Of a stretch of DNA of 64,000 bases, positions 5,803 through 61,073 are shown piece after piece (position 1 is the stretch's first letter; each line of letters opens with the position of its first letter). The stretch covers positions 124,001 to 188,000 of the forward strand of contig WION01000077.1 in the NCBI GenBank assembly GCA_015039365.1. Reading direction: 5' to 3'. Under the pieces are notes generated by a model, which saw nothing but the letters and a program-made list of their open reading frames with translations, searched no databases and was not told where the DNA came from. The translations under genes and the position numbers were made by a program. This DNA comes from Amanita rubescens (Eukaryota > Basidiomycota > Agaricomycetes > Agaricales > Amanitaceae).

Positions 5803-8800
5803 TCATAAGTAGCATGTAAGTAGATAAAGGACATATGTACCATCAATGTCTGAAGTCACCTGCTTGTAAAGGAAATCAACAAAATGTTGATGACTAGAAT
5901 GCATAAGACTCTGAGATGTAATGTCAGTCTTCAGCTTCTCAACAAAGGCTTTTTGCTTGAATTGATCTAAAGCTTCCATGACTGATGGTAGAAATGGTTT
6001 ATTGATCCAAAATGATGACTTGGCAATAATAATAATTGCTTGAAGGTTTCAGCATGAATAGAGCAAATGAAATGGAATAATTTACAAACTAAAACTTGGC
6101 AAGCAGTAGGCTTATTGCAATAGCATCAGTTTCACATCACAACAGAAACAGAAACCATACATTGACTGCAAAGTCCTTTTGTTGACCTCCAAATATGGAG
6201 AGAAGTGCATGCTATTTATAAGAAAGAGCATATCCTTCAATGTACCATCAGACCTACACACTAGCATGCAAACTGAATGAAAATTAATGTGTCATTAGTC
6301 AGTTTCACTCACCTGAAAATCAAGGAATAATGTAAGTACATGAGCCCTGGGATTGGGTTGGAATCTTACAATCTATGGATGATAATAATATAAGGCAAAG
6401 GAATAGAAAAGGTGAGACTATATACTCACTTGCTGATATAGTACAAGGATGTAATGAGATGCCTTTCACATAATATAAATGTCACTCACTTTCTGGTTAT
6501 GGGGGAAACTTGATGATGTACTGCAACTGCTTCACAGAAATGTACAATGTGACTTACAAGTTGCTGTTGTTCATAGGAAAAGATAGGCTGAGATTACCTT
6601 TCTAAAAAATATGCAATGTCACTCACTTGCTGTTGGTCATAGTAAGAAAGGATGTGATGAGACTGCCTTTCACAAAAATATGAAATGTCACTCACTTGCT
6701 GTTGGTGATAGGAAAAGATAGGCTGAGATTGCCTTTCTCAAAAATATGCAATGTTACTCACTCGCTGTTAGTCATAAGATGAGACTGCCTTTCACAAAAA
6801 TATGAAATGTCACTCACAAGTTGAGGCTGTTGGTCATAGGAAAAGATTTGATGAGACTCCCTTTCAGAAAATGTGCAACTTTTCACTCACTCCCTGTTGG
6901 TCATATGAAAAGATGTGATGAGACTGTCTTTAACAGGATGTGAAATGTCTGTCACCCACCAACTGATGGTCATAGGATGCATAATGTTTAACAAGCTGTT
7001 GATCATATAAAGGATGTAATGACACTGCCTTTCACAAATGTGCAATGTCACTCACTTGCTGTTGGTCATGGGAAAAGATGTGACAAGGCTCCCTTTCAGA
7101 AAATGTACAATGTCACTCACTTCCTGTTGATCATAGGAAAAGATGTGACAAGGCTCCCTCAAAAAAAAAAAAAAGTACACTATCATTGGTCACTCACAAG
7201 CTGTTGGTTGTGGGAAAAGATGTAATGAGACTGCTGTTCATCAAATGTGCAATGTTGCTTACTTCCTGTTGGTCATAGGAAAAGATGTGATGAGACTGCC
7301 AGTTTCACCAAATGTGCAGTATCACTCACAAACTGTTGGTTATAGGAAAAATGTGATGAGACTGGAGTCTTCCACAAAACCTTCTATTTCGCTCACTTCC
7401 TGTTGGTCATAGCAAAAGATCATGTGCCAATGAGACTGCTGGGCCTTCCACAAACATCTTCAATGCCACTCACATCCTGTTAATCATAGGGAAAAAATAC
7501 ATCATACAATGTCCAAGTCACTCACATTCTTTTGGCCATGCCAGGCAACATATTGATAAGGTCAACTTTTGAACCACTAAAATGACATGCTGCTAACCTC
7601 CTATTTTTAAAGGAAAAGATGTGATTTCCAAGTCACTGGTTTTCACAAAACTTGGAATATCACTCACAATCTGTAGAACAACAGAAGATGTCAAATATTT
7701 AGCAGCAGAGTGGCCAGCATCACTCACTTCCTTTTAGAATGGAATTAGCATAATGAATGAAAGAAGACAATGCCACCAACTCTCTTTTGCCATAGTATTT
7801 CATATGATGAATTCACATCTCACAAAAGTATCACATACATCCTGTTTGTTTTGCAATAGCTTGTGAAAAGGTGAAAAAACAGAAGATATTTACTGTCTGT
7901 TGTTTTGGGACAAGATTGAATCTTTATAACTTCAGTCAGAAAGGAAACACCACTTACTTCCTGTTATTAATGCAATTAAACTTGTTGAGACCCTCTTTCA
8001 GATAACAGTATTTCACCAACTTTCTATTGTTCATTGAGTTATGTCTGATAAGCTACACAAACATCAATGTTGCTTACTTTCTTTAAACAAGTCAGATGTG
8101 GCATGAGCCAGTGTTGTATTACTCACTCCCTGTTCACATGAGACTGGATTGACAAGTCTGCTTACAATGATAGAGTAACTCACTTGCTGTTGGTCATATG
8201 ATGCACCATGGGATAATTTACCAAAATTTGAGTGATGTCCAAACTCACTTCCTGTAGATTATGTGGCAAGGCTGCAGATCATAAAAGGAAGCATTACTCA
8301 CAAACTGTTGTCATGAGACAATTTATCAGATCTAAGCTAGTTCAATGCCACTTACCCACTGATATCAATAACATCAGATCCTGCCACCAAGAATATGGTG
8401 CCAACTGACCTGTATTTCACTCAGTTGTTCATTGGCCATCTGAGGCATGGTGACTAATCTTGTTTTCATGTGGAGCAATGGAGTACTACTTACCTCCTGA
8501 TGAACTTTGTTTCACAGGTATTTATCATTCCATATGAAGGCCACCTACCTCTCTATCTGCCTATCATCATTTAAGTTTTCCTATGCTAATGTGTAGTTTG
8601 ACAAAAGTGCATACCCAGAAATGTGGAAATTTTGAAAAAACCATAATAATGACTTCATCCCATGGCCAATGTTTATATTTCAGAACATGTCTGAACAATG
8701 TCAATGTTAGTAAGGGACATTTTAAATGTGACCCTCACTTAAGTGCAGATTTAACACAAAGGTCAAGATTATTCATCTGTGTTGAAACAAACAGCTGGTA

Positions 8801-9923
8801 CATGCTGTCATCATCTATTGCATCAGCAGTTCGCTGAGTTAATTCAGCACAATTCTTCTCTGGTAAATCCATGTCTATGAAACAACATTACTCCCATTTT
8901 TCAGGAAGAAATCCTCATCATTCTCACCTTCCAATCGCACATATGCCTTGGGAGGATATTTGGCATTCAAAACTTTAGGAAGATAAACTTTCTGAAAAGC
9001 ACTTTCAGCAATTTCCCTGGCTCTCTCCCACTTATCTCCATCCATTGCATCAATCAAGTTGACAAATTGAGTGGCTATATGACCATCAAATTTAGTGAAT
9101 ATAACCACCAAAGGAGCTGTAAAAAAATATTCTTTAGTCAGTGCTAGATTTTGTGGAAAGTTGGCCAATGGAAAGGAGGTAACAATAGTTAAGGGTAAAC
9201 AATCTCTCCAAAGCCAACAAGTTACAAGATGAGATTAGGACTCACCTCTGCCTGTCCTATTGAAGAATTCAAGTTCTACAGGTAGAATGGGACGAGGGCT
9301 GTCCATGGGTATACAGTACCTAGAGGAAGCCAGGTCAACCAGTACTGTAAAGGGATAGTGCAAGATACCAAATTGCATGCAGCTGGTTTTTCAGCTCAGT
9401 TTCTGCAGACTTCCTTTCAATGAAATTCCAAGCAATCTCCAATTCCTCAGTTGAACCAGATTCAAAACCCTGGGTGTCATGGAAGATAAAGTTACTTCCA
9501 GGGTATGTAATTTGATGCTCAATATCATTCAGGCCTCTCTGTTATCATCAGAAGTGAATAGGTGCATCCATACATCATTATCTGACTCACCTCAATTGAT
9601 GGCATCAAATGAATCACAGAGTGTTCAAGCTGATTACCTGCAAGAGACTCAACAACCAAAGGAAAAAAAACTCAGACTCACTTACCATCCTTGTCATATA
9701 TGATGGGCTTTGTCCCATTTGCTACACCACAAACCTTCTGAAGGATGGTTGTCTTTCCTGCATTAGCCCTCCCAATGACAAGGATGCGAAAGTGTGGGCA
9801 TAGGTATCGTTCCCTGAGCATTTGAACATGTGTCTCATCTGTATCTGATTGTTCATCAGAGGCCACAAAGATAATGCAAAGATGTCATATTGGATTACTC
9901 AATGGAAATGCACTATCTGCCAT
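5803..9923 (-). CDS. Fungal large-G-domain GTPase with a chain of single-codon exons
   Basis: Eight ordinary exons fit exactly in phase: 9899-9923, 9686-9844, 9591-9637, 9369-9538, 9246-9319, 8928-9116, 8739-8874 and 8615-8690. They give a P-loop GRANAGKTT (G1), DTQG as the DxxG of G3, and TKFD as G4, then conserved family blocks LKNQLHAIWYCIPMD, LNAKYPPKAYVRL and a last exon ending KFPHFW. From 8560 to 6309 follows a run of about 36 tiny exons (separate entry), then exons at about 6161-6272 and 5859-6038 coding for a helical region (LKDMLFLINSMHF, FLPSVMEALDQF). The stop is probably the TGA at 5803-5805. Similar G-domain proteins are common and poorly characterised in mushrooms; their C-terminal part is helical. 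The GTPase half is firm. Continuity across the chain, and the exact 3' end, are inference. The gene is AT-richer than the housekeeping genes. Confidence 0.8.
6309..8560 (-). repeat. Array of ~36 micro-exons (32 of exactly 3 nt) separated by short introns
   Basis: On the minus strand the pattern AG-NNN-GT recurs every 50 to 78 bp. Exon positions include 8549-8560 (12 nt), 8494-8496, 8356-8358, 8302-8304, 8249-8251, 8184-8186, 8127-8129, 8078-8080, 8021-8023, 7958-7960, 7894-7896, 7839-7841, 7781-7783, 7728-7730, 7668-7670, 7598-7600, 7526-7528, 7474-7476, 7397-7399, 7330-7332, 7263-7265, 7198-7200, 7121-7123, 7056-7058, 6993-6995, 6960-6962, 6891-6893, 6818-6826 (9 nt), 6762-6764, 6696-6698, 6627-6629, 6558-6563 (6 nt), 6490-6492, 6430-6432, 6370-6372 and 6309-6312. 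The central triplet varies (TGG, TTT, GAA, CAA, ACA, AGA, CTT, CGA and others) while AG and GT stay fixed. The 41 codons contain no stop and are rich in Glu and Gln. Most intervals are 46 to 75 nt; those at 6963-6992 (30 nt) and 6273-6308 (36 nt) are too short for confidence. Units from 6460 to 7450 are very alike; those above 7450 share little beyond splice signals. Confidence 0.75.
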
Positions 9924-45840: not shown

Positions 45841-47539
45841 ATGATGGACAACCAACTTACCTTGCCAGTCATGGCCAGCTCAGGTGGCAATTTCTTCACT
45901 GGAGCTCAGAATGTTCTTGTCACAGGTGGCCAGTTCTTTGGAGTCAATGGGAATTATGTATGTAACTTTGGGCAAGTTGATGATATCAATAATCATGATA
46001 ATTCTTAGCAAACAATCCATAACCGAGTTGTTTTGTCTGATATGCTACCACCCTTGCCTCCTCTGAGGCATTCTAGTACTATGTTTACAGGACGTGGTAT
46101 ATACTTACAGAGGCTAAAGGATTACTTTGGCTCCAGTGCCACAAGACAAAGAAAGTCATTTCTTTTGCATGGTATGGGAGGCATTGGCAAGACTCAAATT
46201 TGCCTCAAATTCATTGAGGAATATGAGAATTTGTGAGTGCTACTAGACACTTTACATGGCCACATAAGATGATTTAGTACCCTACATAGATTTTCTGACA
46301 TATTTTGGATTGATGCTTCTTCAGAGAGTACTATTGATCTCAGGCTCAGGCAAATTGTGCAGGCAAATAGTGGCACTCCTGAAGCTGCCTTCTCAGCTGC
46401 ATCTGCTCTCAAATGGATTTCCAAGAAGTCCAATTGGTTGATGATTTATGATAATGCAGATAGTGGATGCCATGTGGTTGAAAGGTTCCTCCCTCCTGGG
46501 ATTGGAGGAAATATCTTGATAACAAGCAGGAATAGGGAATTGATCAGAATTGCAGAGAACACAATGGAGGTTCTTGAAATGGAGGTAGATGAGGTATTAT
46601 CTCTGCTATCAAAATCAGCTGGGATACATTATGCAGCTGAGATTCCTGAGAATATTAAGACCATGATGGCAATGCAACTTGCTTCAAAGCTGGGAGGGAT
46701 ATCACTTGCAATTGACCAAGTTGGGGCATATATGCTAACTTGTAAATGCCCCCTGGATGATTACCTGGAATTATATGACAAGAATCAGGATCAATTAATG
46801 TCTAATCCTTTATTCAAAGGAGCATCTGATTATGGATCTTGCACCTATGGGACTTGGGAGATTTCAATGAAAGAAATTGAGGCAAGAGCTGCACAAGAAG
46901 GAGATCCTGCCAAAGCTATAGCAGCTGAGAGTGCTATTGCCATATGTACATAAAATAATTGCCTTTCTGCACCATGAAAACATACCAGAAGAAATGTTCA
47001 AAAATACTGCAGAGAACTACAGGAAGAGGAACATTGAAGAAGAAAAGGAACTTGGTCTCCCACTTTCAGTAACAATGTTAAATCCTAAGGTCCTGTTCCT
47101 GGATGAAAAGGGGGGATGGAATAAAATGCAATTTCAGTTAGGAATTCAACTTCTGCTGTCATTTTCTCTCATTAAGCACAGAGGAAAAATTTATTCAGTC
47201 CACCCTTTAGTACAATCTTGGAGCAGGAATAGAGTCCCAAAGATGGAAATTGATCAACAGCTTCTTATGTCAAAAGCATTTCTAGCTTGTTCTGTGGAGT
47301 TGGACTATAAGATTGACAATTATGAACATTGTGGGTTGCTTGCACCACATATAAGAACAATCAACAAACAGGCAGCACAGCTGAATCTAAATAATTTCTA
47401 CTATGATGATGAATGTGATAGATTTTCACTTGTATTCCATCATATTGGGAGTTGGAATGAAGTGGAAAAGTTAATGATGTTGATGCTTGAAAGAAGAACA
47501 GCAAGTCTTGTTCCAAAACATCCATTTGTTTTGAATAGC

Positions 47540-48905
47540 ATGGCAGGTCTGGCCTTAACATACCGGCAACAGGGGAGGTGGGATGAGGCAGAGAGGCTCC
47601 AGGTAGAGGTGGGATGAGGCAGAGAGGCTCCAGGTAGAGGTGGGATGAGGCAGAGAGGCTCCAGGTAGAGGTCATGGATGCAAGGAAAGAAAAACTTGGA
47701 TCACAACATCCAGACACTCTGACCAGCATGGCTAATCTAACATCCACATACTGGAAGCAGGGGAGGTGGGATGAGGCAGAGAAGCTGGAGGTAGAGGTTA
47801 TGGAGGCAAGGAAAGAAAAGCTTGGATCACAGCACCCAGACACTCTTATCAGCATGGCTAATCTAGCATGCACATACAGGAAAAAGGGGAGGTGGGATGA
47901 GGCAGAAAAGCTGGATGTAGAGGTTGTGGAGACAATGAGGGATATGCTTGGGTCACAGCATCCAGACACTCTTACCAGCATGGCTAATCTAGCCTGTACA
48001 TACTGGAGCCAGGGGAGGTGGGATGAGGCAGAGAAACTGGATGTAGAGGTTATGAAGGAAAGAAATGGAAAGCTTGGATCACAGCATCCAGACACTCTTA
48101 CCAGCATGGCTAATCTAGCATCCACATACATGGACCAAGGGAGGTGGAATGAGGCAGAGAAGCTGGAGGTAGAGGTTATGAGGCATGGAAAGAAAAGTTT
48201 GGATCACAGCACCCAGACACTCTTATCAGTATGTCTAATCTAGAATGCACATACAGGAACCAGGGGAGGTGGGATGAAGCAGAGAAGCTGGATATAGAGG
48301 TTATGGAGGCAAGGAAAGAAAAGTTTGGATCACAGCATCCAGACACTCTGAGAACCATGGGTAATCTAGCATACACATACTGGGAACAGGGGAAGCGGGA
48401 TGAGGCAGAGAAACTGGAGGTAGAGGTTATGGAGGCCAGGAGAGAAAAGTTTGGATCACAGCATCCAGACACTCTTATCAGCATGGCTAATCTAGCATGC
48501 ACATACAGGAACAAGGGGAGGTGGGATGAGGCAGAGAAGCTAGATGTAGAGGTTATGGAGGCAAGGAAAGAAAAGCTTGGATCACAGCACCCAGACACTC
48601 TTATCAGCATGGCTAATCTAGCCTGCACATACAGGAAAAAGGGGAGGTGGGATGAGGCAGAGAAGCTGGATGTAGAGGTTATGGAGACAACAAGAGAAAA
48701 GTTTGGATCACAGCACCCAGACACTCTTGTCAGCATGGCAAATCTAGCATCCACATACTGGAACCAGGGGAAGTGGGATGAGGCAGAGAAGCTGGATGTA
48801 GAGGCTATGGCCCAGGCAAGGAAAGAAAAGCTGGGATCATAGCACCCCGGGCCAGACACTCTTACCAGCATGGCTAATCTAGCATCCACATACCGGGGGA
48901 GGTGG
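47540..48905 (+). repeat. About eleven tandem 126-bp TPR-coding repeats
   Basis: The unit codes for 42 residues and recurs with few differences; variation is concentrated at a handful of codons (for example KEKLG/REKFG, LACTYRKK/LASTYWNQ, LEVEV/LDVEV). Such high identity between units at the DNA level points to recent expansion or ongoing homogenisation, a hallmark of fungal NLR recognition domains. Confidence 0.93.
47577..47669 (+). repeat. 31-bp direct repeat, three exact copies, inside the first TPR
   Basis: Copies at 47577-47607, 47608-47638 and 47639-47669 are identical and correspond to GRWDEAERLQVE. Other TPR units have this segment once. The two extra copies add 62 nt, which shifts the frame and produces a TGA at 47615-47617. 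Loss of both, or gain of one more, would restore the frame. Confidence 0.92.
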
Positions 48906-58200: not shown

Positions 58201-61073
58201 TAAGCACAGAGAGCAGACGAGGAAGCGTCCATTCTAGAGGCCGTGAACGAACCGCGTCAGCAAGAAGTTCAAGGCATAACAGTGTAACTGGTCCCAAGCT
58301 TTCCGAAACGCTCTCCGCCGTCTGGGGAGCGGGAGACCCACAACTTAGATCGCCCATCCAACCTCAAACTCCTCAATCACCGCAACAACCACCGACACCG
58401 ACACCTCAAACCCCGCAACAACCTCAACAACCAACCCCTCAACCACCTCCACAACCAACTCCAAAACCGCCCTCTCAACCGCCCACACAACCACCTACGC
58501 AACCGCATACACCTAAAGCCAAGAGCCGCAAGCAATCTATGACGGCTTCCACCGCTCGCGCTTCTCCTCAACTACCTCCGCCGCCAGTCCAGCCCGAGAT
58601 AGTTGCAGTTGCAGCTGCAGCTGCAACACCCCCTCATTCATCACCGAAACCGCCCCCCACGCCGCGCGATGTCGGACAAGCTACAGTCACGCCCTCGCCA
58701 AAGCCTTCAGCGCCAGCGTCGCCCAAGTCAGCGATACTCCCCGCTTCCCGTGGGCTAACTAGAAAGGCGTCTCCTCCCCACAAGGCGGAGAAATCGCTTA
58801 GTCCTCTTGCTGCTCAGGTGCTACAGCCTGAGCCTATGCCTGAGCCTATTCCTGAGCCGGAACCAGTCGTGGTGGCAGACAATGCTGGAGATGTAACTGG
58901 AGTTTCGGGAACGGGTCTGTTGGACGTCGCCAATACGGAAGTTGTATCAGGTGGAGCTGATAACCTTGATGTTGGAGCGCAAGATGCGTGGAACCTTGGA
59001 GATAATCCGGACGCAAGTTGGAACCTTGGAGGAGACAACAGCGCGGCAGTGGTGGATAACTCCCTAGTTGATGTTCCTGGCTCATTTACCGGTGGAGGAG
59101 GGGAAGAAGGTCTAAGTTTGCTGGACAACCCAGTTCCACCTCCTGACTCGAACACTGGAGCACCAGCATTATTCTCAGGTTCCATTTCCTCGTTCATGAC
59201 TTCCAGCGCAGTCAGTGGGTTAGGCAGCAAGCTAGGCTCTTTTGGCTTTGGCTTTGGTTCGGGAGGTTCAGGAGCTGCGGATACATCATCTGGGACTGGG
59301 CTCTTTGGCTCTAACAAGAAACAAGATGACACTGATTTTAAATCGGGTCTCGGATGGGGATCTTCAGCAAGGTCAGCTGCGGAGAAGGCTGCATCCGCCT
59401 TGGGAACGGGTGGATTTGGAAATAAGAAACAAGACGACATTGAACTTAAATCGGGTCCAGGATGGGGATCCTCAACAAGGTCAGCTGCGGAGAAGGCTGG
59501 ATCCACCTTGGGAACAGGTGGCCTTGGATGGGGTGGTGGCTCCGGACTCGGAAAGGCATCGCCGTGGGGTAAAGCACCGTCGGCTGCAGGTTCCAAAACC
59601 GTATCGCCTAATCCACCAGCAACGCCCCATGTACCTGAACAGGCGGTTGAAGGACGGGGTGGTGGCTCCGGAAAGGCATCGCCATGGGGTAAGGCATCGC
59701 GGTCGGCTGCGGGTTCCAAGGCCGTATCGCCCAATCCGCCAGCAACGCCCCATGTACCTGGACAGGTGGTTGAAGCCGCTCAAGATACTGCTGAAAAGCG
59801 CAAGTCCAGGGCCGTAACGCCTAACCCGCCGGGAACACCGCAAGTGCAGGAGCAGCTTGTTGAACCTGTGCAAAGTGCTGCTGAAAAACGCAAGTCCAGG
59901 GCTGTAACGCCTAACCCGCCAGCAACACCGCAAATGCAGGAACAGGTTGTCGAACCCAAGTCCAAAGTTAATACGCCTAATCCCCCTGCAACGCCTCACA
60001 TTCTAGAACAGACGGTTGAGTCGTCTCAAGCTCCCGCAACTGAGGAGAAACTTCCAGAAGTATCAGAACAGACCATAGAACATACTCAAGCTGCTGAAAC
60101 GGAGATACCGCCGGCGGAAGTGTCAGAACACGTGGGTGATCCAGCTGAAGCAGGTACAGGAGGGGAACCTGTTCCAGTTGAGGACGCTCCACAGGAATCG
60201 GCGGAAGCTCATCCGGGAGACACGCTTGCTGAAGAGCATCAGGCAGACAAAGCCGAAGCTCCGTCTGTAGAACCCCCCGAGGCATCTGCCGAAGTTGAAG
60301 ATGTTGATCCAGAAGAGGCGGCTGACGCAAAGGACGACGGCTTTCCAGCGTGGGGCAAGCAAAAGAAGAAGAAGGGACAGAAAGCTAAGCAAGAAACTTC
60401 TACGCCAGCGACGCCTGTGGCGGAGGATGATTGGGGAACCACGGTGAAGGGGAAGAAGGGGAAGAAAGGCAAACAAGGACCTACGGAGCCCCCAACGCCA
60501 GTGACTCCTGCGGTGGAAGACACAGAATGGACATCCACCGTGAAAGGAAAGAAGAACAAGAAGAAAAAGGGCGGCTTAGCGGATGCCTGGGGCGATGAAC
60601 AGGACGATGGAAATGAAGGCGGTGACGCTGAACAAGGACTCATGGAGCCCCCAACGCCGGTGACGCCTGCGGTGGAAGACACAGAATGGACATCCGCCGC
60701 GAAAGGAAACAAGAACAAGAAGAAAAAGGGCTTCGCAAGTGTCTGGGGCGTTACACAGGATGATGGGGATGAAGGCGGTGATGCTGAACAAGACGCTGAG
60801 CAATCTGCTAACCCGGGACAACCCTCTGAAACCCAAGACGCACAAGGGGAACAAGGCGATCAGGGACAGACGACAGAAGTCCAGGGCGAGCCTGGGCCAG
60901 TTGACAAGCAAGACGGCGAGGATCAAGAAGAACTCCTGGGTGCGCTGGAAGACACATTGGCTGAGGGCAAGGACCAAGGAGAGGAGGAGGAGGAGGAGCA
61001 GAATACCGGTGGTGGGAAGAAGAACCAGAAGAAGGCTAAAGCTGGAGGGAAGAAGAGCAAGAAAAAGAAGTGA
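55233..61073 (+). CDS. Hsp70-like ATPase with a ~1,080-residue disordered C-terminal tail
   Basis: An actin/Hsp70-fold ATPase of the Hsp12A-like fungal group: phosphate-1 loop LVVAIDVGTTFSG, IYYDKQGKLMAAGAEA, GGLIPDTNAGKARIWFVTEGEAS, phosphate-2 loop IADAGGGTLDISSYG, adenosine motif VFLVGGYAASPWL, and FGLTEFKARIKWVDNG at its end. It lacks a canonical substrate-binding domain. Splicing through a 14-nt exon (57783-57796) gives WVDNGSTRY-GPASIVYNE in frame and carries on without a stop to 61073. The tail has a Pro/Gln tract (about 58340-58510), repeats with KKQDD...GWGSS...RSAAEKA, repeats with AVTPNPPATP, blocks EPPTPVTPAVEDTEW and KKNKKKKG, and a lysine-rich end KKSKKKK. That tail is unlike ordinary Hsp70s. 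The junction is predicted, so two genes remain possible. Confidence 0.78.
59280..60760 (+). repeat. In-frame coding repeats of the Hsp70-like tail
   Basis: Three repeat types follow one another: two copies of a roughly 114-bp unit coding KKQDD, K-SG-GWGSS and SAAEKA (59320-59510); about six copies of a unit coding (A)VTPNPPATP followed by a proline/glutamine-valine phrase (59590-60010); and two long copies of EPPTPVTPAVEDTEW followed by a lysine run and DEQDDG or TQDDG (60485-60770). All are multiples of three, so copy number can change without breaking the frame. Confidence 0.8.

Follow-up and report, generated by a model that had tools for sequence, protein, structure and literature searches.

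The 64,000-nucleotide stretch of Amanita rubescens DNA analysed here (contig WION01000077.1, positions 124,001 to 188,000 of the forward strand; hereafter the window) carries on its minus strand a gene for a G-domain protein that extends from 9532, or further upstream, to about 5841. In our framed model a chain of predicted micro-exons, many of them one codon long, lies inside this gene, with the G domain upstream and a conserved C-terminal domain downstream. P0001, a public protein named Amanita rubescens, is the annotated part of the gene (100% identity across 88% of the query); it matches the Pfam MMR_HSR1-like G domain weakly (23.9 bits, curated cut-off 21.9), and the 213-residue query part gave, taken alone, no Pfam match to that domain. 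The features of the gene are listed below, the G-domain stretches from sequence matches and the array from modelling. Two models were made: a splice-signal-only model, which uses donor, acceptor, branch motif and intron length without frame or any preference for 3 nt, and a framed model.

9362..9532, minus: G-domain coding stretch (matched extent, borders unrefined; C726:133362-133532, whose 98% identity to the query segment is not independent evidence)
8926..9120, minus: G-domain coding stretch (matched extent; C726:132926-133120)
8735..8878, minus: G-domain coding stretch (matched extent; C726:132735-132878)
8615..8690, minus: final exon of ordinary size ahead of the array; it ends in phase 0 with ...FSKFPHFW, as in sister genes
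8549..8560, minus: 12-nt exon GCAGATAGAGAG (ADRE); V/A-x-R-E in sister genes
8494..8496, minus: single-codon exon GAG
8410..8439, minus: 30-nt exon MANEQLSEIQ; common to sister genes (MANKQLSEAQ in P0003)
7056..8358, minus: block of 22 single-codon exons, its start common to sister genes; codons 1-11 TGG TTT GAA CAA GGA AAA AAA GAA ACA GAT AGA, codons 12-22 GAA ATT GAG AAT GAT GAA TTT GAA CTT GAA CAA
6960..6995, minus: 36-nt exon, or CTT and TTG around a 30-nt intron; ambiguous
6818..6893, minus: single-codon exon GGA (6891-6893) and 9-nt exon CCTCAACTT (6818-6826)
6558..6764, minus: single-codon exons CGA, CAA and CAA, and 6-nt exon CAACTT
6370..6492, minus: single-codon exons AAA, CAA and ATT
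6312..6313, minus: zero-length exon, a predicted recursive splice site AG/GT (ttttcag/gtgagt); framed model
6258..6260, minus: single-codon exon TGT (C)
6161..6211, minus: 51-nt exon HALLSIFGGQQKDFAVN
6086..6110, minus: 25-nt exon PTACQVLV
5841..6038, minus: 198-nt C-terminal-domain exon (...IIAKSSFWINKPFLPSV...); family match C726:129839-130057

The micro-exon array of the window gene

The array was noticed in the initial annotation through the recurrence of AG-NNN-GT on the minus strand, and this recurrence is real, with units spaced 49-77 nt apart. The splice-signal-only model places 29 three-nucleotide exons there, flanked by introns of 45-95 nt. Among 100 dinucleotide shuffles of the region the mean was 0.44 and the maximum 3; the opposite strand of the array region gave one such exon, and 52 window pieces of the same length (26 places, both strands) averaged 0.31 and reached 3 at most. 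The framed model contains 31 exons of a single codon, further exons of 12, 30, 36, 9 and 6 nt, one zero-length site and 40 introns between 46 and 74 nt long, and passes on into exons of 51, 25 and 198 nt with the frame open throughout (ADREEMANEQLSEIQWFEQGKKETDREIENDEFELEQ...LRQQQLKQICHALLSIFGGQQKDFAVNPTACQVLVSIIIIAKSSFWINKPFLPSV...). Thus the array that had been described as about 36 micro-exons, 32 of them a single codon, stands with a revised count; the normal size of its introns holds, as does the absence of stops, the frame being open from the G domain to the conserved C-terminal domain. The 29 (unframed) to 31 (framed) exons of 3 nt are microexons in the sense of internal exons of up to about 30 nt between introns, and every small exon modelled as far as the 25-nt one is in phase 0. 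Half of the window introns (20 of 40) have GTGAGT donors, and their acceptors are CAG in 28, TAG in 6 and AAG in 6.

The chain itself has to be drawn differently in several places. Its exons had all been put at 3-12 nt, which left out the 30-nt exon at 8410-8439 that sister genes share. A 30-nt interval had been taken for an intron; it more likely forms part of the 36-nt exon at 6960-6995, the two-codon alternative also being in frame. At its end, the zero-length exon at 6312/6313 and the TGT exon at 6258-6260 are a better reading than a GTGA exon and a 36-nt intron, and together they put the 51-nt exon in phase 0; P0131 and P0121 read I-C-(P/D)ELFS across the zero-length site, TGT and the 51-nt exon. 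We had at an early stage read the chain as ending in ...LKIVMS-stop after the GTGA exon, and dropped this reading: the 51-nt exon is open in phase 0 in many genes, and P0131 fits the open exon. In 9 of the 14 loci modelled, an AG/GT zero-length site precedes the next small exon, and so is conserved among paralogues, although splicing of one long intron across 6312/6313 would yield an identical product. In the framed model the spliced linker, from ...FPHFW to the 51-nt exon, has about 62 residues rather than the 41 or so first proposed.

Intronless sequences from sister genes

Signs of splicing come from public proteins that lack the introns of the arrays. From residue 11 onward P0131 is the spliced product of the sister gene L020 at 107 of 107 residues, a match that spans three ordinary exons as well as 17 single-codon exons, the zero-length site and TGT. 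The frame-free call of TGT and those 17 codons was made before P0131 was retrieved. The longest run common to 18 chains and 238 proteins is this one, at 17 residues, and 20 shuffles of codon order gave 5 at most. P0122 is the spliced product of L039 at 104 of 104 residues and joins ten small exons with none omitted; the 12-nt exon of L039 reads CCTAGGACCAACAG where CCTATGACCAACAG is usual, and the new AG is used in frame. A third protein, P0003, shows WFEHGKKDTDKQI in the position of the conserved chain start, which encodes WFEQGKKETDREI, and carries VGRDEMANKQLSEAQWFEHGKKDTDKQI with the chain order kept. The earlier proposal that the GTPase mRNA acquires, codon by codon, a stretch encoding an extra peptide is therefore supported in sister genes (P0131-L020, P0122-L039 and P0003), and is likely to hold for the window gene.

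The profile search, which turned up proteins on short contigs, gave 204 matches, of which 120 were listed (34 of the proteins were retrieved), and many of the 204 look like single-exon frames of genomic contigs, which are uninformative on splicing. The P0003 tail, used as a query, matched P0003 only. In the 75.7-Mb genome assembly searched (G000) there was no near-exact gene for P0133, P0132 or P0121, their best C-terminal stretches reaching 88%, 91% and 90%.

The relative P0133 also gives a view of the protein product: in its structure model (mean pLDDT 73) residues 164-189 fall below 50, which suggests that the linker of this relative is probably disordered. In the PDB, a structure search with this model found nothing at an E value of 0.001 or below, and P0133, P0105, P0121 and P0126 matched no Pfam family up to E 0.1. 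Our guess would be that the linker serves in recognition.

The family of arrays and the variation of its units

The window array belongs to a large family. The exact context CAACAG-NNN-GTGAGTGACATT occurs 1340 times in G000 and, with the pattern reversed, not at all. Over spacer lengths of 1-5 nt, the same context encloses 1-2 nt in 16 cases (3 in C13, 13 in C749) and 4-5 nt in 6. The 1340 triplets include one TGA, no TAA and no TAG. The W-F junction pattern of the chain is found at 82 places, some of them probably haplotype copies, and a search with the C-terminal domain gave at least 150 matches (150 scored of 225 candidates). At 17 loci (near-duplicates L035 and L040, and also L037, being excluded), 799 of the 878 exons that the frame-free model flanks with 45-95-nt introns are 3 nt long; none of the 799 is a stop, where 46-59 would be expected from base composition, and of the 853 exons no longer than 15 nt, 818 have a length divisible by three. 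These counts are descriptive, and a binomial would not give a fair probability, because the units are related by descent. Among the 14 loci modelled with frame, the window gene and L011 gave a clean open chain to the C-terminal domain. Arrays were retrieved by the unit pattern and by the family's own proteins, and those tied to a neighbouring gene all belong to one family. A long micro-exon chain at L021 (G000:C26:113000-122999, minus) is rich in ATG, CTG and GAG and has several 6-nt exons; with a weak C-terminal-domain match in the region (C26:113336-113524, 48%), it is probably, as judged from sequence, a distant member. From exon distances the C1 and C170 copies were suspected to differ in their number of units; an identity of 99.85% over the 4638 nt compared did not bear this out.

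The introns of these arrays can be nearly constant. One 62-nt intron has 352 exact copies in the genome, the many near-identical introns by which introners are recognised. By a crude string similarity, window introns 1-18 resemble this unit at 0.41-0.78 and introns 19-32 at 0.71-0.94, so that the later part of the window array looks younger. Among 127 units of L017, L048, L049 and L050, chosen for introns with at most 4 mismatches, 103 introns are identical and 27 substitutions occur in 7874 intron nucleotides. Per-site diversity is 0.0067 in these introns against 0.52, 0.68 and 0.43 for codon positions 1, 2 and 3, and a minor share of at least 10% is seen at 3 of 3 codon sites against 0 of 62 intron sites. 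Across 2.9-3.2 kb, L048, L049 and L050 share 95-97% identity, but the later parts of their codon chains mostly differ. Since intron interiors diverge in the arrays with spliced counterparts (L020, L039), the sameness in other arrays suggests youth or homogenisation. The triplets on both sides are identical at 36 of 123 introns, with 26.1 expected from codon frequencies, and 8 of the first 15 intron bases match the reverse complement of the intron end; DNA-based introner families carry target-site duplications, terminal inverted repeats or both.

Either the codons were driven apart by selection while recombination kept the introns alike, or a separate process acts on introns or on codons; we favour selection together with unit turnover. 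In the most uniform arrays assembly error is possible. A comparison of the early block in 8 genes (L010, L011, L016, L019, L020 and L022, whose register is broken in the model, and near-duplicates L035 and L040 being set aside) gave 20 codon differences, all nonsynonymous, from which we draw nothing because the third base seems constrained. The third base is A or T in 92% of the 799 micro-exons of the 17 loci and in 57% of 444 last-exon codons from 7 loci, and C in 0.5% and 23% respectively, leaving nearly one codon per amino acid. As A-ending codons before GT create an extra AG, a splicing constraint on this base is possible; the bias may equally reflect descent of the units, the two being inseparable here.

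Elsewhere in the window, further exons are predicted on the minus strand below about 5600, downstream of the array gene, and likewise at L022; with a motif HGDLHG...NVLL, these resemble a protein kinase. On the plus strand, frames at 46357-48893 hold about ten 126-bp tandem repeats (GSQHPDTLISMANLACTYW...) that resemble tetratricopeptide repeats after a nucleotide-binding part. Four two-copy tandem repeats of 90-159 bp are clustered at 59316-60792.

Readings of the array and what they mean

We consider it very probable that the 31 predicted single-codon exons are spliced in succession through intron definition, forming a linker (about 62 residues) that joins the G domain to the predicted C-terminal domain. 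Codon-by-codon splicing is supported for the family and likely for the window gene, for whose own mRNA we infer it.

Several observations count against this reading or narrow it. A branch-like motif is present in only 25 of the 40 window introns, the public model P0001 ends before the array, and the window gene itself had no transcript-like (intronless) sequence among the proteins found. That P0131, P0122 and P0003 derive from RNA is judged from their missing introns, their source label being only jgi; if P0131 and P0122 do, the small exons of the sister genes are present in spliced RNA. Downstream of TGT, the borders of the ordinary L020 exons were placed manually while P0131 was consulted (the model differed at one), and the acceptor of the L039 12-nt exon, missed by the model, was fitted after P0122 had been seen. 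The first 16 residues of P0122 and the first 10 of P0131, which misfit the spliced model, resemble retained intron, P0003 departs from the expected frame at its end, and P0005 is without the array peptide; splicing is therefore imperfect or not always complete. In most of the other 12 loci the simple framed model chose wrongly, giving partly out-of-frame peptides, and L037 (G000:C749:1500-7131) and L017 (C13) have exons of 0, 1, 2 or 4 nt amid perfect units, which may be a decayed copy or the result of ambiguous bases dropped in polishing near-identical units. Lastly, in the 8 genes codon positions 1 and 2 of the early block (0.84 and 0.89) are about as conserved as intron interiors (0.83), and we rejected early-codon conservation as a proof of coding.

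That figure would suit a minisatellite, with a period near 65 bp, lying in a single large intron or in an untranslated tail, with AG-NNN-GT as its repeated intron end; so would the periods of 65-67 bp reported by Tandem Repeats Finder for parts of 6531-7420, and the end of the public model before the array. Such a repeat would explain neither the exon length of three and absence of stops genome-wide, nor the open frame into the conserved C-terminal domain, nor the exact intronless matches of two sister genes, and we regard it as extremely improbable. Repeated insertion of introners into an older coding sequence, with old codons and new introns, has in its favour the 352 exact copies of one intron and the finding of identical introns beside different codons, as insertion would produce. 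Random insertion, however, predicts many exon lengths and not 3 nt; paralogues 95-97% identical have largely unlike chains, so the codons are not a shared old sequence; there seems to be no general 3-nt target duplication; and the retrieved arrays are tied to one gene family (retrieval being by pattern and family proteins). We hold this origin very unlikely.

It is also unlikely, if less so, that the codon variation is partly an effect of assembly, polishing having mixed near-identical units and garbled them where they differ. C13 and C749 alone hold exons of 1-2 nt, and the loss of ambiguous bases there might account for CA or GA, while in L050 units such as CTTC and GAAG look odd; mixing, on the other hand, should blur codons and not make many clean ones, and L020 and L039, with their diverged introns, are exact against independent sequences. 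A more serious candidate, though one we doubt, is that the chain is spliced with units often skipped or retained, each gene yielding linkers of varied length. Loss of a single-codon exon keeps the frame, the near-identical introns of young arrays could let splice sites pair across units, and P0122, P0131 and P0003 have retained or shifted pieces at one end; against this, no exon is left out of P0131, which has its 17 predicted single-codon exons joined, or of P0122, which has its ten small ones.

If the exons are spliced in succession, as we prefer, their size would be no obstacle. Intron definition is known from fungi with short introns. The difficulty of defining so many tiny exons, raised in the initial annotation, would fall away, since with introns of 46-74 nt intron definition would suffice. 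Splicing would probably be ordered, because sites 3 nt apart could hardly be bound simultaneously. Arrays would gain and lose whole units of intron plus codon, each step changing one residue without a frameshift; recombination may keep the introns alike while the codons, not the introns, diversify, most likely under selection for a varied and probably disordered linker. A bolder reading, which we hold less likely than not, is that the gene family acts as a codon-by-codon diversity generator, in which a constant 62-nt intron alternates with single codons that change far faster, and intron recombination reshuffles, adds and drops residues in frame. The product would be a G-domain protein with a hypervariable linker, possibly a recognition surface, and excised, codon-free intron RNA could template the identity of the introns.

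Among known systems, the array looks most like schistosome micro-exon genes (MEGs) and the bicycle and megacycle genes of aphids; plant 1-nt exons come closest in feasibility and introners in the sameness of their introns, as far as the partial texts of the sources go. Like the array gene, MEGs have tiny symmetrical exons, which make up much of the protein, though the available part of that account describes no runs of single-codon exons (PMC4350168). Their products are secreted or gland-associated, in contrast to a G-domain protein; we saw no homology and tested none. Tiny exons hold most of a MEG's coding sequence, but only the linker of the array gene, whose G and C-terminal domains lie in ordinary exons. 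MEGs are also marked by alternative splicing that yields variant proteins. Bicycle genes, with about 17 exons on average, and megacycle, with more than 100 microexons, are similarly rich in microexons, but since megacycle codes for about 2000 residues, an average exon in it is far longer than one codon (excerpt of PMC9168663); bicycle internal exons are almost all phase 2, those of the array phase 0. In plants, exons of 1-15 nt are spliced, those of 1 or 3 nt appearing in the accessible text singly or as adjacent pairs and not as dozens chained with repeated introns (PMC8831610). Introners and introner-like elements share with the array many near-identical introns in one genome (PMC9860276, in part); the array differs in being tandem, with 3-nt spacing, in one gene family and with no apparent general target duplication. 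Xlr2 of Trichoderma virens shows a functional microexon in a filamentous fungus, one regulated microexon and no array in the portion available (PMC11121469). A search of a limited literature collection gave no comparable fungal or single-codon exon array among the matches listed. We set the array apart as a new kind because what repeats in its coding sequence is a single codon, and this codon varies from unit to unit while the introns hardly change.

If this is true, a region of a gene can be built as one codon per exon, dozens consecutively, in a large family within one genome, and such regions can escape annotation, since the public model of the window gene ends before its array. Exon size need not then limit splicing when introns are short, and the arrays would offer a natural test system for intron definition and for splicing fidelity among identical introns. 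For the family itself, they would allow variation in protein length and composition with little risk of frameshift.
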